Of a stretch of 64,000 nt of DNA, positions 3,579-9,933 are shown piece after piece. Position 1 is the stretch's first letter; every line of letters starts with the position of its first letter. A program made the translations under genes and the position numbers. The notes beneath the pieces are model-generated. The model was not told the DNA's origin and did no database searches. It saw only the letters and a program-made list of their open reading frames with translations. Source of the stretch: Streptomyces sp. HUAS CB01 (GTDB lineage Bacteria; Actinomycetota; Actinomycetes; Streptomycetales; Streptomycetaceae); assembly GCF_030406905.1 (NCBI RefSeq), contig NZ_CP129137.1:3671001-3735000 (forward strand). Reading direction: 5' to 3'.

Positions 3579-4314
3579 CGCGCTCACCCTGACCGGCCGC
3601 GCCCTGCGCCTCAGCAGGCGCAACGTCGACGCCGTCATCACCAGCCTGATGCTGCCGGTGATGCTCATGCTGATCTTCGTCTACTTCTTCGGCGGGGCCA
3701 TCGAGACCGGCACGGCGTACGTCACCTACGTCGTCCCCGGTGTCCTGCTGCTGTGCGCGGGCTTCGGCGCCTCCACCACGGCCGTGACGGTCAGCGAGGA
3801 CATGAAGGGCGGGATCATCGACCGCTTCCGTTCGCTCGACATCGGCGGCATCCCCATCCTGGCCGGCCACGCCGCCGCCAGCACGGCCCGCAACCTCGTC
3901 TCGACCGCCCTCGTCCTCGGGGTCGCCTTCGCGATCGGCTTCCGCCCCTCGGCGACGGCCGCCGGCTGGTTCGCCGCCGCCGGTGTCCTGCTCGCCTTCG
4001 TCATCGCCGTGTCCTGGCTGTCGGCGGCGATCGGGCTGCTCGCCAAGACCCCCGAGGCGGCGGGCGGGTTCACGTTCTTCATGATGTTCCTGCCGTACCC
4101 CAGCAGTGCCTTCGTCCCCATCGACACGATGCCGGACTGGCTGCACGGCTTCGCGGAGCACCAGCCGGTCACCCCCGTGATCGAGTCCCTGCGCGGTCTG
4201 CTGCTGGACCGGCCGGTCGGCGACTCGCCGTGGATCGCGCTGGCGTGGTGCGCGGGGCTGCTGGCCGCGGGCGTGGCGGGGGCATGGGCGCTGTTCAGGT
4301 GGCGGACGAGGTGA
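3571..4314 (+). CDS. ABC exporter permease, DrrB type (ABC-2)
   Basis: This 247-residue ABC-2 permease has about six membrane segments (first at roughly 22-45, LMLPVMLMLIFVYFFGGAI). It carries the family motif region around FGASTTAVTVSEDMKGG and FRSLDIGGIPIL. It starts with GTG at 3571 inside the end of the ATPase gene, behind GAGGAGG. With that ATPase it forms a complete efflux pump. Its last 20 bases overlap tail-to-tail with the end of the phosphotransferase gene on the other strand. Confidence 0.88.
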
Positions 4315-6616
4315 GCCGGCCGCCCGTGCGACTCGACTGCCGTGCTCCCGCGTCCTCCGGCGGCGGGGTGTCCGGGTCCCGCGCCAGTATCGCGCGGGCT
4401 CCCTCCGGCAGCGCGATGTAGAGGAACGGGTTCACGTCCCGGGGCGTCCGGCGCAGCCCGAGCGAGTCGGTGGCCGCGCCGAGCGTCATCGCGTAGGAGT
4501 CCACCGCCCTGCGGACGTTGGGAGCGTGCAGGTCCGCGCCGTTGACGAGGCGGTCGAGGTCCAGATACGCGGACCGGACGACCTCGATCCACCGGTAGGT
4601 GCGGACGTCCTCCTCCCAGCCCTCGACGTAGTCCGTGCCCAGCGCCCCCATCCGCAGCGCCCAGCGTCGGTACATGCGCCGGGCGATCTCGGTGCGGTGG
4701 GGCGTCAGATGCAGATGCCGGACCAGGTCGTACAGCGGATCGCCGACCATGGCGAGTTCCCAGTCGATGACGGTGAGCCTGCCCGGGCCGCTGCGCACCA
4801 GGTTCCACGGGTTGAGATCGCCGTGCAGGAGTACGGGAGTGCGGCGCGTCACCGTGTGCCGGTCGAGGATCTCCTTGAGCCGGTCCGCACCCGGCAGTCC
4901 CAGCGCCCGGGCCAGTTGCCGGGAGTCCGCGGGCAGGGAGGCGACCATCCCGACGAGCCGGTCGCTGAGCCGGCGGTGGAAGCAGCCGTCGTCCGCCGCC
5001 GTGCCGAGGGTCCCGGTGTCGGCCGCAGCCAGGGCGACCAGTTGGTCGACGAGGTCGTCCGCCTCCTGGGGCCGCAGGCCCTGCACCGGATGCTCCGGGG
5101 GACGGAACGGACCCGCCGGACCCTCGTAGGAGTGGACGGCGAACTGGTCCTCCAGCCCGCCGTAGCCGAGGGCCAGGATGCGGGGCGCGCGCACGCCGCC
5201 CCGCAGCCGTTCCACGGCCAGCAGCACGGCGTGCTCGTCCAGGAGGCGGGGCTCCCTGCGGGCGGCGCCGTTCAGCTTGCGGCGGACGACGACCCGCGCC
5301 CCGGCGCTCTCCACGTCCACGACGGTGTTGAGGTGCCCCGTGCCCCGGAAGACCCGGCCGGCGGGGGCGGCACCCTCGGCGCCGAGGGCCTCCGTCACGG
5401 CAGACCAGGGGAACCAGGTCCGCTCGGGAACCCGCACGTCCGCCTGCCACAGGACGGCCGACGGTCTGTGCCGGACCCGGGCGGGCCGCACGGGGAGCCG
5501 GGCGGTGTGCCAGCGGTACAGGGCCTGCTCGATCTCCGGCAGACCCGGCGGGTCGGGCAGCCGGAGCGGCCCCTGTGCAGCCGCCAGGGCCTGCCGCACG
5601 GACTCCGCCGCCTGGTGGAGGTCCCTCGGCAGGTCCGCCCGGCCCAGCCCGCGGGCCGCGCGCATCACGTCCGGGAAGACGGACTGCGCCCGCTCGAAGT
5701 CGAGATAGGCCCGCAGGTCCTCCGTGCCCTGCGCGGCCTCCGGCCGGACCTCGGTCATCGCCCTGCCCCAGGCCTCGACGACCTCGTCCTCCTGGAAGGA
5801 GGGGTAGCGCATGCGGACGAGATGGGTGGCGAGATCGTGCAGGGGGTCCCCGTACGTCGCCAGTTCCCAGTCGACGCACACCAGCGGCGGGCCGCCGTCG
5901 TCGTAGTAGCGGAGGATCACGTTGTCCCGGTGCAGATCGGTGTGGAGCAGCGTGAAGGGCCGGGGCGTCATGGGCGGGATCCGGTCGGCGAACCTCCGCA
6001 GGGCGTCCTCCGGCACTCCCAGGGACACGAACAGACCGCCGAACTCAGCCCAATTGGGCTGCCTGATCTGCTCGTCGGCGAGCCGGGCCATGGTGCGCAG
6101 GAACGACCGGCTCGCGCCGTCCCGCGGCCAGCCGGCCGGCAGCTTCGGCAGCCTTGTCACGGGCACCGCGTACATTCCGGCCAGCAACGGTGCGAGCGCC
6201 TCGACGAGCCGGGGGTCGACGGGCTTGCCGTACTCGCAGACGCCCGACAGCGGGACGCCCTCGACGTAGGTGTGCACGGCGGCGTCACCGACCACCGCGA
6301 GCACTTCGGGCACATGCGGCAGCACGCCCTTCAGCGCGTCGAGGAGGAGCCGCTCCCGCGGCCAGGTGCGGATGACGACCGGAAGCACCCGGGGCATCCG
6401 CCGGCGCACGGTGACCCGTTCACCCGCCGCGCGCCCGAGCAGCCGCGCCGTGTCCGGATCCAGGGCGGCGATGTGGTTGCGGTTGTGGTGGCCCCGGGTC
6501 GTCTCACCGGTGCGGGCCGCCTCACGGACGAAGCGCGCGAGCGCGCCGCCGTCCGGACCGGCGGTGCGAAGGACGGCCGTAGGGGAAGTGCCCACCAGCC
6601 GCTCCTGAACAGTCAC
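4295..6616 (-). CDS. Tandem double aminoglycoside-phosphotransferase-like protein
   Basis: The 773-residue protein contains two complete APH/choline-kinase-like domains in one chain. The first has the catalytic loop LLHTDLHRDNVILRY and metal-binding VCVDWELATYGDPLHDLA at about 225-260. The second has LLHGDLNPWNLVRSG and TVIDWELAMVGDPLYDLVRH at about 600-640. Both retain the HxDxxxxN and D-W-E residues, so both may be active. The substrate cannot be told from the sequence; small-molecule phosphorylation, including antibiotic inactivation, is possible. Translation starts with GTG at 6616. The gene stands alone, and its 3' end overlaps the ABC permease gene by 20 bp. Confidence 0.78.
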   Translation of the reverse strand: MTVQERLVGTSPTAVLRTAGPDGGALARFVREAARTGETTRGHHNRNHIAALDPDTARLLGRAAGERVTVRRRMPRVLPVVIRTWPRERLLLDALKGVLPHVPEVLAVVGDAAVHTYVEGVPLSGVCEYGKPVDPRLVEALAPLLAGMYAVPVTRLPKLPAGWPRDGASRSFLRTMARLADEQIRQPNWAEFGGLFVSLGVPEDALRRFADRIPPMTPRPFTLLHTDLHRDNVILRYYDDGGPPLVCVDWELATYGDPLHDLATHLVRMRYPSFQEDEVVEAWGRAMTEVRPEAAQGTEDLRAYLDFERAQSVFPDVMRAARGLGRADLPRDLHQAAESVRQALAAAQGPLRLPDPPGLPEIEQALYRWHTARLPVRPARVRHRPSAVLWQADVRVPERTWFPWSAVTEALGAEGAAPAGRVFRGTGHLNTVVDVESAGARVVVRRKLNGAARREPRLLDEHAVLLAVERLRGGVRAPRILALGYGGLEDQFAVHSYEGPAGPFRPPEHPVQGLRPQEADDLVDQLVALAAADTGTLGTAADDGCFHRRLSDRLVGMVASLPADSRQLARALGLPGADRLKEILDRHTVTRRTPVLLHGDLNPWNLVRSGPGRLTVIDWELAMVGDPLYDLVRHLHLTPHRTEIARRMYRRWALRMGALGTDYVEGWEEDVRTYRWIEVVRSAYLDLDRLVNGADLHAPNVRRAVDSYAMTLGAATDSLGLRRTPRDVNPFLYIALPEGARAILARDPDTPPPEDAGARQSSRTGGRLTSSAT

Positions 6617-6667
6617 GCGAGGCGCCCACGATGACGGACACCATAGCGGGACTCCCCCGCACGGGGC

Positions 6668-6709
6668 GGTGAACCGGCGAGGCCGGTGCCGTGACCGGAA
6701 GGGTTCACC
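6668..6709. other. Long-loop inverted repeat between genes
   Basis: Perfect 8-base arms GGTGAACC and GGTTCACC flank a 26-base G+C-rich loop in the 111-bp gap downstream of the GntR gene. It may act as a minus-strand terminator, but there is no T-tract. The arms also resemble a PHO-box heptamer, which I consider coincidental. Confidence 0.35.
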
Positions 6710-6727
6710 GGCCCGCAGCGCCCTGCA

Positions 6728-7606
6728 CTAACCGAACTGATGACTCCGGTCCCAGTAGGAGTCGAACATCTGCTGCGACGCGGTCACGAACCGGGATCCC
6801 TCCGACGCGGCGTCCTCGTCCTTGGCGTAGTGGAAGAGGGTGGCCCCCAGCCCGATCACATCGGTGATGACGATCTCCTGGCCGTCCTGCAGCCGCACCT
6901 CCCGGTCCACCAGGTCGTAGAACCCGTGCAGCGCCTCCTCGCCGTTGAGCAGGTAGAGCTTGCCCGTGGGGTAGTGCGGCACATGGGCCACCCGGACGTC
7001 CACCTCCGGGACGCGCCCCTCCTGCCTGAGGTCGCGCAGGGTGTCGACGAGCAGGTCCGTGTAGCGCCGGCTGATGGCGCGCAGCCGCTCCAGCGGACGG
7101 GGATCGTCCGGGTCCTCGACGTTGCGGGGGTACAGCGAGGGCTGCCGCAGATCGGGCAGCAGCAGGCGCACGGCGATGCGCCGGGGACTGATCTCCCCGC
7201 TCTGCACCCGCTGGGACGCGACCCCGAGGTGCGAGGTCAGCGACTGGGCCGTCAGGGTGAAGACGTCCAGTGCGACTTCCTCCTCCTCGAACGCGGCCTC
7301 GATGAACGGCCCGAGAGCGGCCGCTCCGGATCTGGAGTGCCGCCGGGCCGAGGACGTGTGGACCAGCTGGGTCTTGATCACCCTGGTGCCGCTGCCCCTG
7401 CGGGACTCGATCCACCCCTCGTGGGTGATCTCCCGCAGTGCCTTCTGGACGGTGTCGCGCGAGACACCCAGGCGGTCGGCGAGTTCGCGCTGCGTGGGGT
7501 AGCGGCCGCCGACGTGGTACGTGCTGCCGTCGGTCAGCTCGGCCCGCAGCGTGTCCGCGACACGCTGGACCAGGTCGGCGCCTTCGCCGGTCTCCTTGCT
7601 CCCCAC
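6728..7606 (-). CDS. GntR-family regulator, paralog of the DevA-like regulator next door
   Basis: This 292-residue protein has an N-terminal GntR winged helix (about 20-85, containing GGRYPTQRELADRLGVSRDT). Its C-domain is shared with the GntR protein encoded at 8686-9573: both contain VRLLLPD, a KLY-x-LNG-x-EAL-x-x-[YF]Y region, and a C-terminal FD-x-x-W. In S. coelicolor two such paralogs, devA and devE, control development; this would be one of them, though I cannot say which from sequence alone. Translation starts with GTG at 7606. A gene for a 51-residue membrane protein diverges from it across a large palindrome. Autoregulation is likely, since it is reported for DevA. Confidence 0.75.
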   Translation of the reverse strand: MGSKETGEGADLVQRVADTLRAELTDGSTYHVGGRYPTQRELADRLGVSRDTVQKALREITHEGWIESRRGSGTRVIKTQLVHTSSARRHSRSGAAALGPFIEAAFEEEEVALDVFTLTAQSLTSHLGVASQRVQSGEISPRRIAVRLLLPDLRQPSLYPRNVEDPDDPRPLERLRAISRRYTDLLVDTLRDLRQEGRVPEVDVRVAHVPHYPTGKLYLLNGEEALHGFYDLVDREVRLQDGQEIVITDVIGLGATLFHYAKDEDAASEGSRFVTASQQMFDSYWDRSHQFG

Positions 7607-7702
7607 GCCGCGAAGCTACCCCTTCCGGCCGTACCGCATACCGCTTTCGGTCACATTGGCCGGGCAACGCACCTGCGGGTTAAGGGATCTGACGGATAGG
7701 GG

Positions 7703-7748
7703 ACCAACTGGTCAAACAACCAATCCAATTGGACTGGTTGGCTTGACC
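7703..7748. promoter_or_regulatory. Large palindromic operator between GntR gene and mini-membrane-protein gene
   Basis: A nested inverted repeat is centred on CCAATTGG at 7725-7732. The core 7718-7739 is symmetric with one mismatched pair (AACCAATCC / GGACTGGTT). Outer arms GGTCAA at 7710 and TTGACC at 7743 extend it to 39 bp with a one-base offset. A small ACCA-AC-TGGT element adjoins it at 7703-7712. The position and symmetry fit a dimeric GntR operator controlling both divergent genes. Confidence 0.7.
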
Positions 7749-7773
7749 GGGCCCGCCCGTTCGGAGGGAACTC

Positions 7774-7929
7774 ATGGCTCGCCTCCTGCCACCACTGTGG
7801 GAACTTCTGGCCCAGCAGCTCCTCGGAGCTCCGGGACTGCTCGTGGCGGTCGTCGCCCTGACCGCCAAGGAGGAAAGGCGCAACTGTGCGGTGCTGGGGT
7901 GCGTCGTGTGCGTGCTCCTGCTCATCTAG
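7774..7929 (+). CDS. 51-residue membrane protein, divergent from a GntR regulator
   Basis: I do not recognise a named family. ATG at 7774 follows GGAGGG at ideal spacing. The product has a hydrophobic segment at about 18-31 (GAPGLLVAVVALTA), a charged turn KEERRN at 32-37, and a second hydrophobic segment CAVLGCVVCVLLLI to the end. The charged turn and second segment resemble the 55-residue product encoded at 9766-9933 (RRN-CAVLGCVV beside RNAPCAGVGSVV), and both genes diverge from paralogous GntR genes. It is probably a two-span membrane peptide co-regulated with, or sensed through, the regulator. The gene ends 22 bp from the convergent HAD gene. Confidence 0.65.
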   Translation: MARLLPPLWELLAQQLLGAPGLLVAVVALTAKEERRNCAVLGCVVCVLLLI

Positions 7930-7951
7930 TGCCATGACCGGGCGGCCGTGG

Positions 7952-8689
7952 TCACCGACCCCGCCGCACGATCGACAGCACCGGTTCCAGCGATTCCACG
8001 ACCACCGTCGCGCCGGCCGCGCGGAGCCGTTCCGCGCGGCGGGTGTCGTGGGCGTAGCCGAGGAAGCTGACGCCCGCGGCGCGTGCCGCGAACAGGTCCG
8101 AGGGGGTGTCGCCGATCATCAGGGCCGAAGCGGGCGCGGCGCCGAGGGAGCCGAGGGCCCGCAGCACACAGTCCGGGTCGGGCTTGAGGAGCGCGAGGTC
8201 CGGGCCGCGGCCGTGGATGTGGGGGGCGAAGCAGTCGCGCAGGCCGCGCCCGGTGAGGTACTCCTCCGCCGCCCGCGGCGAGTTGTTCGTGGCGACCGCC
8301 AGTCCGTCCGCCACCGCACTCCAGGTCCGTATCAGGGGATCGGCATAGGCGGTGGGCCAGGCGCTCCGGGTGGCGAGCAGTTCCTGGCGGGTGAGCTCCT
8401 GCTCCAGCCCTTCGACCACGTCGCTGCCCGGATGCTGCAGGCCCACCGTCCGCAGCACCTCGTGCGGATCGGCGGCGGTCCGCTGGTCGTCCGTGAGGCG
8501 CACCCGGCCGCCGTGCCGGTCCAGCCAGCCGACCAGGCTCTCCGCGACCCCGGAGGCGGGATGGCGGGCGAAGAGGCGGCAGATGGGGCCGTCGAAGTCG
8601 AAGAGGACGTGGTCGGCCCCGCTGATCAGGTCCTCGATGGTCTCCGCCACGTGCGCCGCCTGTTCGTCGAGTGCCGCATCAGTAGTCAC
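7952..8689 (-). CDS. devB: HAD-family hydrolase/phosphatase in operon with GntR regulator (DevB-like)
   Basis: The 245-residue product is a HAD-superfamily phosphatase. Motif I is VLFDFDGPICRLF at about 27-39, motif II ATNNSPRAA, motif III lysine in LLKPDPD, and motif IV MIGDTPSDLFAAR. It has a helical cap between motifs I and II, as in phosphoglycolate-type phosphatases; the substrate is unknown. The GTG start at 8689 overlaps the stop of the GntR gene by 4 bp, so the two are translationally coupled. In S. coelicolor, devA is co-transcribed with the hydrolase gene devB and both are needed for aerial growth. I assign the name from that architecture, not from an alignment. Confidence 0.72.
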   Translation of the reverse strand: MTTDAALDEQAAHVAETIEDLISGADHVLFDFDGPICRLFARHPASGVAESLVGWLDRHGGRVRLTDDQRTAADPHEVLRTVGLQHPGSDVVEGLEQELTRQELLATRSAWPTAYADPLIRTWSAVADGLAVATNNSPRAAEEYLTGRGLRDCFAPHIHGRGPDLALLKPDPDCVLRALGSLGAAPASALMIGDTPSDLFAARAAGVSFLGYAHDTRRAERLRAAGATVVVESLEPVLSIVRRGR

Positions 8690-9573
8690 GAAGAGAGTGT
8701 CAGGTTCGTGGCGATGGTGTTCCAGAGTGCGTCGAACCACTTCCGCGACTGTTCGACGAAGGCCGCGTCGCGGGTGCCGTTGCCGGCGTCGAACGGGAAG
8801 AGGAGCGACTGGGTGCCGAGGGTGTCGTACATCTCCACGGTGGTCGCCTCGATCTCCTCCTCGCGTCTGGTCACGGTGTAGTACGCGAAGAGCGCCTCCG
8901 TGCCGTTCAGCACGTAGAGCTTCACCGGTGGGGTGAACGGCAGCGCGCGGAAGGCGACCGTGACGTCGATGCCGTGGGAGGCGCGCAGCGCCTGGAGGTT
9001 GTGGCGCAGCACCATGCCCTGGGCGTTGCGCTGGGCGAGCCAGCGCTGGTGGACCAGGTCGTCCTCGTCCGTGTCGGCGACGGACGTCGGGAACGCGAGG
9101 TCGATGTTGCGGTCGGGCAGCAGCAGCCGCACCTCGACGGCCTCGGGCCGGATCCGGCCCTCGTGGATCAGCCGCAGCGGTTCGGCCAGCGCCAGCATGA
9201 GCGTCTCGGCCGTCAGGCACAGGGCGTCGACGCGCACCTCGGGCACCGAGAACGCCTTCGCCAGCTGCGGGGCCAGGGCGACCATCGTGGGCTGCGGCCG
9301 GACGTCCTCGCCGTCGCCCGGCCCCTCCGGACGCTCGGCGACCCTGGCCGGGGCACCCCTGGTGACATGGGTGAGGAGGCCGTCCTCCTGGAGGATCCTG
9401 AGGGCCTGCCGTACGGTGCCCCGCTCCACGCCGAACTCCTGGACGAGCTGGGACTGCGTGGGCATGTGATCGCCGGGTCGGAGCACACCACTGTCGATCC
9501 GGTCGCGCAGCACATCGGCGATGTCGTGATGTGTCGGCTTTCTTCCGTTCACCGTGCCGTTCTCGTGGTTCAC
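8686..9573 (-). CDS. devA: GntR-family regulator, DevA-like
   Basis: This 295-residue regulator has a GntR winged helix at about 14-80 (MPTQSQLVQEFGVERGTVRQ). The C-domain is homologous to that encoded at 6728-7606, sharing VRLLLPD, KLYVLNGTEALFAYY and WFDALW. GTG at 9573 is the start. It overlaps the downstream HAD gene by 4 bp, reproducing the devA-devB operon layout published for S. coelicolor, where DevA represses its own promoter and is needed for normal sporulation. About 100 bp upstream carries a phased array of AACT/AGTT half-sites, then a divergent mini-membrane-protein gene. Swapping the devA and devE names between the two paralogs remains possible. Confidence 0.75.
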   Translation of the reverse strand: MNHENGTVNGRKPTHHDIADVLRDRIDSGVLRPGDHMPTQSQLVQEFGVERGTVRQALRILQEDGLLTHVTRGAPARVAERPEGPGDGEDVRPQPTMVALAPQLAKAFSVPEVRVDALCLTAETLMLALAEPLRLIHEGRIRPEAVEVRLLLPDRNIDLAFPTSVADTDEDDLVHQRWLAQRNAQGMVLRHNLQALRASHGIDVTVAFRALPFTPPVKLYVLNGTEALFAYYTVTRREEEIEATTVEMYDTLGTQSLLFPFDAGNGTRDAAFVEQSRKWFDALWNTIATNLTLSS

Positions 9574-9674
9574 AACTCGACGCTACAACTCTTCCGAAGT
9601 TATGGGGAGTTGCCGAACACGGGTTAGTCGACATTGCCAAGTGGGGACAACTTCAATTGAGTTGGCGCCAACTT
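9574..9674. promoter_or_regulatory. Phased AACT/AGTT half-site array
   Basis: Half-sites AACT or its complement AGTT (or close forms) start at 9574, 9587, 9597, 9608, 9639, 9649, 9660 and 9670. Most are 10-11 bp apart, on one DNA face. The perfect 14-bp palindrome AGTTGGCGCCAACT lies at 9660-9673. The array covers the space between the divergent GntR and mini-membrane-protein genes. This fits multi-site GntR autorepression. Confidence 0.68.
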
Positions 9675-9765
9675 GCAAGACATGGCCGAAGAGGCCGAGT
9701 ACCGCCCCGAGTTGGCCGCTTCTTCGACGACTGCGCTCCTCCCCGACCCCAAGGAGGGACCTGCC

Positions 9766-9933
9766 ATGCCACTCATCGCCTTCGCCCTCGAGGAATTCGT
9801 CCAGTGGCGTTTCGGCCTCATGGGCGTGATCGGCCTGGGACTGCTCAGCTTCGGTCTGCGTGCCAGGAACGCCCCCTGCGCAGGTGTGGGCAGCGTCGTG
9901 CTGGCGCTGCTGCTGCACTCCGCCTCGGTGTGA
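9766..9933 (+). CDS. 55-residue membrane protein, divergent from DevA-like regulator
   Basis: No named family is recognised. ATG at 9766 follows AAGGAGGG at good spacing. The sequence opens MPLIAFALEEFVQW, has one hydrophobic segment GVIGLGLLSFGL at about 20-31, a turn RARNAPC, and a second segment GVGSVVLALLL. Similarity to the 51-residue protein encoded at 7774-7929 lies in the turn and second segment. It shares the divergent arrangement with a paralogous GntR gene and an operator-like array between the genes. A role as a membrane effector or sensor of the regulator is inference. Confidence 0.65.
   Translation: MPLIAFALEEFVQWRFGLMGVIGLGLLSFGLRARNAPCAGVGSVVLALLLHSASV

Follow-up and report, generated by a model that had tools for sequence, protein, structure and literature searches.

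GntR regulators with divergent devC-family genes at the dev locus of Streptomyces sp. HUAS CB01

DevA and DevE are GntR regulators needed for normal sporulation in Streptomyces (PMC3187754, Clark & Hoskisson 2011), and the same paper names devC, a gene for a product of about 50 amino acids divergent from devA in S. coelicolor. In the part of that paper available to us, to which all our citations of it refer, devC appears twice in the main text, in a passage of section 7 that gives neither a sequence analysis nor a promoter or function for it, and its devE-linked copy is reported to survive in S. sviceus and S. coelicolor alone. Separately, SCO4189p, a promoter with a -35 element GTTTAT, a 15-nt spacer and a -10 element GGGGAC (PMC8346170, Sevcikova 2021, Table 2), was recognised, among nine sigma factors tested in an Escherichia coli two-plasmid system, by SigF, SigH and SigN; the available main text of that paper mentions neither devA nor SCO4190. 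These two papers were the only literature found to bear on devC in a search outside which most subscription papers lay, and the accessible part of PMC4681348 held nothing relevant. Here we analyse a stretch of 64,000 nucleotides from Streptomyces sp. HUAS CB01 (hereafter the window), in which two GntR genes, GntR1 and GntR2, each face a divergent small open reading frame (ORF), ORF1 and ORF2 respectively (Table 1). An earlier sequence-only reading of this stretch had treated such small membrane partners as undescribed, a view overturned by the naming of devC in the one paper and the listing of SCO4189p in the other.

The paired layout itself, as described in the sequence-only reading, is borne out by the coordinates, and both small ORFs have a GGAGG ribosome site and an ATG start. 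ORF2 resembles S. coelicolor devC by position and size, being divergent from devA and beside devA-devB, and ORF1 likewise encodes a product of about 50 amino acids divergent from a devA-like gene. To place the two ORFs in a wider context, we compared the window with 107 regions fetched from relatives; these were chosen by their GntR matches, so class proportions given here are not genus frequencies. GntR genes were labelled A (devA), E (devE) or F (a third class described below) from scores and position, and a tree changed two A, two F and one E label. The small family was then built by iterated profile search from ORF2 over the ORFs divergent from each GntR gene.

The two small ORFs belong to one family. 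Their peptides share 30% identity, and profiles from which the window's rows were excluded find both of them: with the all-class profile ORF2 scores 71.6 bits and ORF1 18.5 bits, and ORF1 reaches 20.9 bits with the class F profile alone (11.0 with A alone, 12.6 with E alone), compared with 8.9 (all), 8.5 (F), 7.7 (A) and 9.4 bits (E) for the best of 400 shuffled peptides. A divergent family member accompanies 81/85 genes of class A, 41/76 of class E, 58/88 of class F and 6/17 of the remaining GntR genes, so that the conserved ORF whose absence from relatives had been named as a refutation is present there. Loci L043 and L095 each hold an extra devA copy labelled E; excluding both, class E stands at 39/74, and these same loci account for two of the four class A genes without a family member. 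The 2011 restriction of the devE copy to two species thus fails for the wider sample, and the class F copy found here is not mentioned in the available text of PMC3187754. The start codon and ribosome site are conserved across the family. A similarity-free scan (45-75 codons, ATG or GTG start, ribosome site of at least 4/6, hydrophobic product), with thresholds chosen once the family was already known, recovered all 186 profile-positive ORFs divergent to GntR genes and picked out 2 of the 79 profile-negative cases scanned. In 149 control regions, divergent to non-GntR genes of these loci, it found none (EIS 0/68, ASN 0/21, APH 0/60). Judging from hydropathy, the devC family probably comprises short hydrophobic proteins inserted in the membrane.

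The devC family is under purifying selection, class by class. All-pairs ratios of nonsynonymous to synonymous differences per site (medians 0.55, 0.55 and 0.89) were uninformative, since synonymous sites look saturated and GC-biased, and were replaced by close, independent pairs. Among these, differences at codon positions 1/2/3 number 155/63/333 in class A (32 pairs), 106/36/155 in class E (19 pairs) and 76/27/119 in class F (12 pairs). Changed codons divide into synonymous and nonsynonymous as 297:197, 137:124 and 97:83, respectively. The raw counts for E and F are nearly equal, and equal frequency of the two kinds of change had been set out beforehand as a possible refutation; because only about 28% of devC sites (45.5/162) are synonymous, the synonymous rate per site is higher in all three classes. 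Between the devC genes of the window and of locus L031, nine changes are synonymous and two nonsynonymous. For the window's ORF1, which lacks a close relative among the fetched loci, selection is established at the level of its class.

In a wider search, profile A1 was positive in 14 of 41 relatives, all of one genus, in at least 8 of 296 genomes of the phylum, again in one genus, and in at least 142 of 345 genomes of the bacterial family, spread over 4 of 17 genera; every candidate was scored for the 41 relatives, while the phylum and family figures are lower bounds, as scoring there was limited to the top 21 and 18 first-look candidates of each genome, respectively. Across the 89 loci that were the best matches of these profile scans (L171-L259; several come from one genome and are not independent), a DevA-family GntR gene lies divergent from the small gene in 87, with a gap of 101-633 bases (median 217). 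Loci L256-L259 count among the 87, with a second devC copy sitting between. Together with L231-L234 they show, for a different genus of the bacterial family (genomes G676, G699, G623 and G690), two devC-like genes in tandem next to a single GntR gene of the DevA family. At L219 the GntR gene is fragmented.

The tie between regulator and peptide extends to their classes. The nearest peptide from another locus shares the regulator class in 75 of 81 class A, 38 of 41 class E and 53 of 58 class F cases, and the median identity of A and E peptides of the same locus (48%) is below that of A peptides (66%) or E peptides (74%) across loci. Because peptide class follows regulator class, and because A and E peptides within a locus are less alike than members of either class across loci, regulator and peptide were most likely duplicated together, in agreement with the duplication proposed in the sequence-only reading.

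Both regulators have an N-terminal GntR winged helix-turn-helix (Pfam PF00392). GntR2 and the overlapping HAD gene form the devA-devB pair, as the earlier reading had correctly recognised, and in a tree of 100 rows built by a quick method GntR2 falls inside the DevA clade; the window's DevA is mostly 55-67% identical to its orthologs and 96% identical to that of genome G034. GntR1, which had been taken for the devE paralog, has to be reassigned. DevE and DevA of S. coelicolor share 57-58% identity (PMC3187754), and we looked for about 57% identity to DevA and a place upstream of devA. GntR1 has 32% identity to DevA and lies downstream of devB; the tree groups it with class F in a clade of 24 rows that has a support of 98 in the SH-like approximate likelihood ratio test, and it shares 47-53% identity with its best class F relatives. 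It is a member of a third paralog class, named F here. A search with DevA found no devE-like gene in the window's own genome. Among described proteins, DevF and DevG of S. sviceus (Clade B, PMC3187754 section 7) are likewise extra DevA-like GntR regulators, with 29-33% identity to DevA and DevE and locus numbers close to that of the S. sviceus devE-like gene; section 7, as available, describes no small partner for them.

We then examined the regions between regulator and small gene for promoters, with the features reported for the SigF/H/N regulon as a guide (a GTTT-type -35, a 12-15 nt spacer and a GGGNAN -10). The pattern GTTW-N13-15-GGGNA occurs upstream of both window ORFs, and in the sense of the small ORF in 77 of 81 class A, 52 of 58 class F and 2 of 41 class E regions; in the other sense it occurs in 1 of 58 class F regions, and shuffled class F regions give 0.9 of 58. 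The narrower GTTTNN-N15-GGGGAY, which matches SCO4189p, precedes devC in 62 of 81 class A regions, compared with 0 of 81 in the other sense and 0.1 in shuffles. The SCO4189p-type patterns were written after the conserved element had been seen, and these pattern and spacing counts describe conservation rather than an independent discovery. A weight matrix from 23 other mapped SigB-class promoters, with SCO4189p left out, exceeded the 95% shuffle level in 43 of 58 class F regions (2 in the other sense), although in the window's class F region it preferred a site other than 7679..7704. The class F element is also found in 17 of 29 regions without the small ORF, compared with 52 of 58 with it (Fisher P 0.0015), and the class E -10 is mostly GGAGAT, which is not canonical for SigB. 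The exact 44-base SCO4189p element is present in 1 of 392 genomes (G270), where it lies between devA and devC and reads into a 62-codon devC; nine of the 392 carry it with at most three mismatches. From this match and the locus numbering, devC is presumably SCO4189, and SCO4189p is likely the devC promoter of S. coelicolor.

Both the promoter element and a palindrome, AGTTGG-N-CCAACT, were found in 57 of the 81 class A and 32 of the 41 class E regions, and the palindrome begins 11 nt past the -10 in 53 and 31 of these, respectively. In the window's 8.1-Mb genome AGTTGG-N1-4-CCAACTT has one exact match, at 9660-9674, and the control gives 0. Across 20 chosen genomes the exact AGTTGG-N2-3-CCAACTT gives 47 rows, counting both strands, versus 4 in the reversed control, and 46 of the 47 lie within the dev locus by coordinates. 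The exception is G277:169385, on contig C1; it and a second palindrome at 169751, about 370 bases away, resemble the DevA/DevE operator, one exactly and one with a mismatch, and might mark an extra target. In class F both promoter and palindrome differ from those of the devA/devC module: the core CCAATTGG is present in 44 of 58 class F regions with the small ORF, and TCCAATTGGACTGG is exact in the window's genome solely at its class F site, with 13 matches at up to two mismatches versus 17 in the control, which is no excess. From this placement we infer that DevA and GntR1 bind their palindromes and thereby repress the devC-family genes.

DevA binds its own promoter in vitro. It is also reported to repress its own transcription and operon (PMC3187754, citing a 2006 paper), and where section 5 of that paper considers constitutive devB expression in a devA deletion, devC goes unmentioned in the available text. 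Because the exact operator falls in the region shared by devA and devC, it is simplest to suppose that devAB and devC are jointly repressed by DevA, with devC awaiting SigF, SigH or SigN. Put in general terms, a GntR gene and its divergent small ORF would form a self-contained module, in which a small membrane protein is driven by a SigB-family factor and repressed by its own GntR regulator, and we hold this to be somewhat better than an even prospect. In such a module a promoter of the type used by SigB homologs (SigF, SigH and SigN in S. coelicolor) would drive the devC-family gene, and the GntR protein would bind the palindrome just downstream of this promoter, repressing its own operon (devA-devB, or GntR1 and perhaps the APH gene) and the small gene together. 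DevC would be made once sigma factors of sporulation or stress are at work and the regulator lets go, and would then act at the envelope of developing hyphae. On this reading the devA and devE phenotypes may run through devC and devB, by way of a presumed step from DevC action to sporulation. Of the three functions guessed in the sequence-only reading (membrane sensor, repressed effector, or peptide signal acting through the regulator's C-domain), the repressed effector fits best, and nothing was found in favour of the peptide signal. What is new here is the logic that joins the devC gene, the SCO4189p-type promoter and the palindrome: if it holds, what has been published separately on the devC gene and on the SigF/H/N promoter SCO4189p comes together as one developmental switch, present in up to three paralogous copies.

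This logic permits a bolder proposal, which we put forward tentatively and regard as rather doubtful: that the devC family supplies the real sporulation effectors of the locus, as up to three paralogous membrane peptides acting during septation, driven by developmental SigB-type sigma factors and each held by a GntR repressor with an exact operator almost confined to its own divergent promoter, and that devA and devE defects largely reflect mistimed expression of devC, with devB, and not the loss of a wide regulon. If operators are largely confined to the dev locus, the first candidates for DevA and DevE action would be devB, devC and the regulators themselves.

Several observations weigh against the module of a SigB-driven, GntR-repressed small gene. 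In 8 of 81 class A regions the looser SigB-type pattern also reads towards the GntR gene, and the weight matrix lifts neither class A (4/81) nor class E (1/41) above shuffles. When one mismatch is allowed, the 20 genomes yield about as many matches to the palindrome (153) as to its reversed control (147), and with two mismatches the palindrome gives 10 matches in the window's own genome versus 38 in the control; the exact site is private, but with mismatch counts not above control, degenerate sites may also exist elsewhere. For the small family, matches in Pfam and NCBIfam are weak and sub-threshold or isolated: ORF2 has sub-threshold matches only, and among 54 members searched in Pfam, DUF7519 is matched by two and TMEM125 by one, with best E values of 0.0015 and 0.0027. 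Single-sequence structure models were also uninformative. That of DevA, with a mean predicted local distance difference test (pLDDT) score of 47, was too poor for a fold search, and that of DevC, one long helix with pLDDT 87.5 and a predicted template modelling score of 0.47, was not trusted for topology.

A further difficulty comes from class E, in which the promoter-like element is present in 22 of 35 regions without devC versus 31 of 41 with it, and hence does not track devC. As the palindrome likewise persists in 33 of these 35 regions, one might suppose that the small ORFs are carried along with a conserved regulatory region, or that the transcript matters rather than the peptide. We give this scarcely any credence, in view of the third-position excess in all three classes, the conserved start and ribosome site, and the 9:2 ratio between the window and L031. 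The gap from devE to the Eis-like gene has a median of 377 bases without devC (n=31) versus 603 with it (n=38), so most missing devE copies of devC look like real absences. Where devE stands without devC, as at L033 and L038, the divergent promoter-like element and palindrome remain, and inspection by eye shows a G+C-rich inverted repeat after them.

The absence of devC at 35 of 76 class E and 30 of 88 class F genes means that the regulators are not always in need of the peptide. It also counts against a membrane sensor or anti-repressor, in which DevC would bind its own GntR and sequester or switch it. Such contact would suit the match between peptide and regulator classes and the near-obligate adjacency at 87 of 89 loci, but shared inheritance of a divergent pair yields the same class match, and devC is kept without devA in two genomes; we consider this explanation unlikely. 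Those two cases, L172 (G021) and L180 (G002), retain devC beside devB (at about 1500-1690) where devA is absent, and neither promoter nor palindrome was seen in the upstream stretch inspected, a further point against the proposed module. They differ from each other by six synonymous and six nonsynonymous codon changes, which is not informative. The same two genomes count against the idea that DevC is a hydrophobic, toxin-like peptide silenced by GntR, as a toxin is by a transcriptional guard, because its reading frame stays open where devA is gone. A small hydrophobic product adjoining an autorepressor and the strong sporulation phenotype of S. coelicolor devA mutants (PMC3187754 section 5) would be in keeping with a toxin, yet the family was found solely in one bacterial family and, in the loci examined, solely at this locus, unlike mobile toxin-antitoxin systems, and we judge the idea very unlikely.

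Table 1. Features of the dev locus in the window; promoters and operators are predictions.
Feature	Position	Strand	Remarks
APH phosphotransferase gene	4295-6616		Downstream of GntR1
GntR1, class F regulator (third paralog), 292 amino acids	6728..7606	minus	Upstream of APH gene; Pfam GntR PF00392 E 2.7e-15
Predicted SigB-family promoter of ORF1, GTTAAG-N14-GGGGAC	7679..7704	plus	SigB-type pattern in class F
Predicted GntR1 operator, 22-bp imperfect palindrome AACCAATCCAATTGGACTGGTT	7718..7739		
Small ORF1, class F devC-like protein, 51 amino acids	7774..7929	plus	Class F profile 20.9 bits; ribosome site 7763-7767
devB, HAD-family hydrolase	7952..8689	minus	Pfam PF00702 E 6.1e-14; overlaps devA stop
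devA (GntR2), GntR regulator, 295 amino acids	8686..9573	minus	Pfam GntR PF00392 E 2.7e-17; DevA clade
Predicted devC promoter, GTTAGT-N14-GGGGAC	9623..9648	plus	Resembles SCO4189p; class A conservation; window has GTTA form
Predicted DevA operator AGTTGGCGCCAACTT	9660..9674		Starts 11 nt after devC -10
Small ORF2 (devC), 55 amino acids, probable membrane protein	9766..9933	plus	71.6 bits; ribosome site 9753-9757

The usual gene order in relatives is asparaginase-like, Eis-like acetyltransferase, devE, devA, devB, class F GntR and APH phosphotransferase. The near relative G034 gave no class F match above the level of DevA itself. The stretch of about 4320-7955 in the window, with GntR1, ORF1 and the APH gene, does not align with this genome except over one stretch of 126 bp, and its flanks are about 90% identical. 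A scan of named genomes returned three distant GntR matches, which were not used. The product of 4295-6616 has 773 amino acids with two APH phosphotransferase stretches, and the kinase-like gene behind the class F regulator parallels the phosphatase-like gene behind devA.

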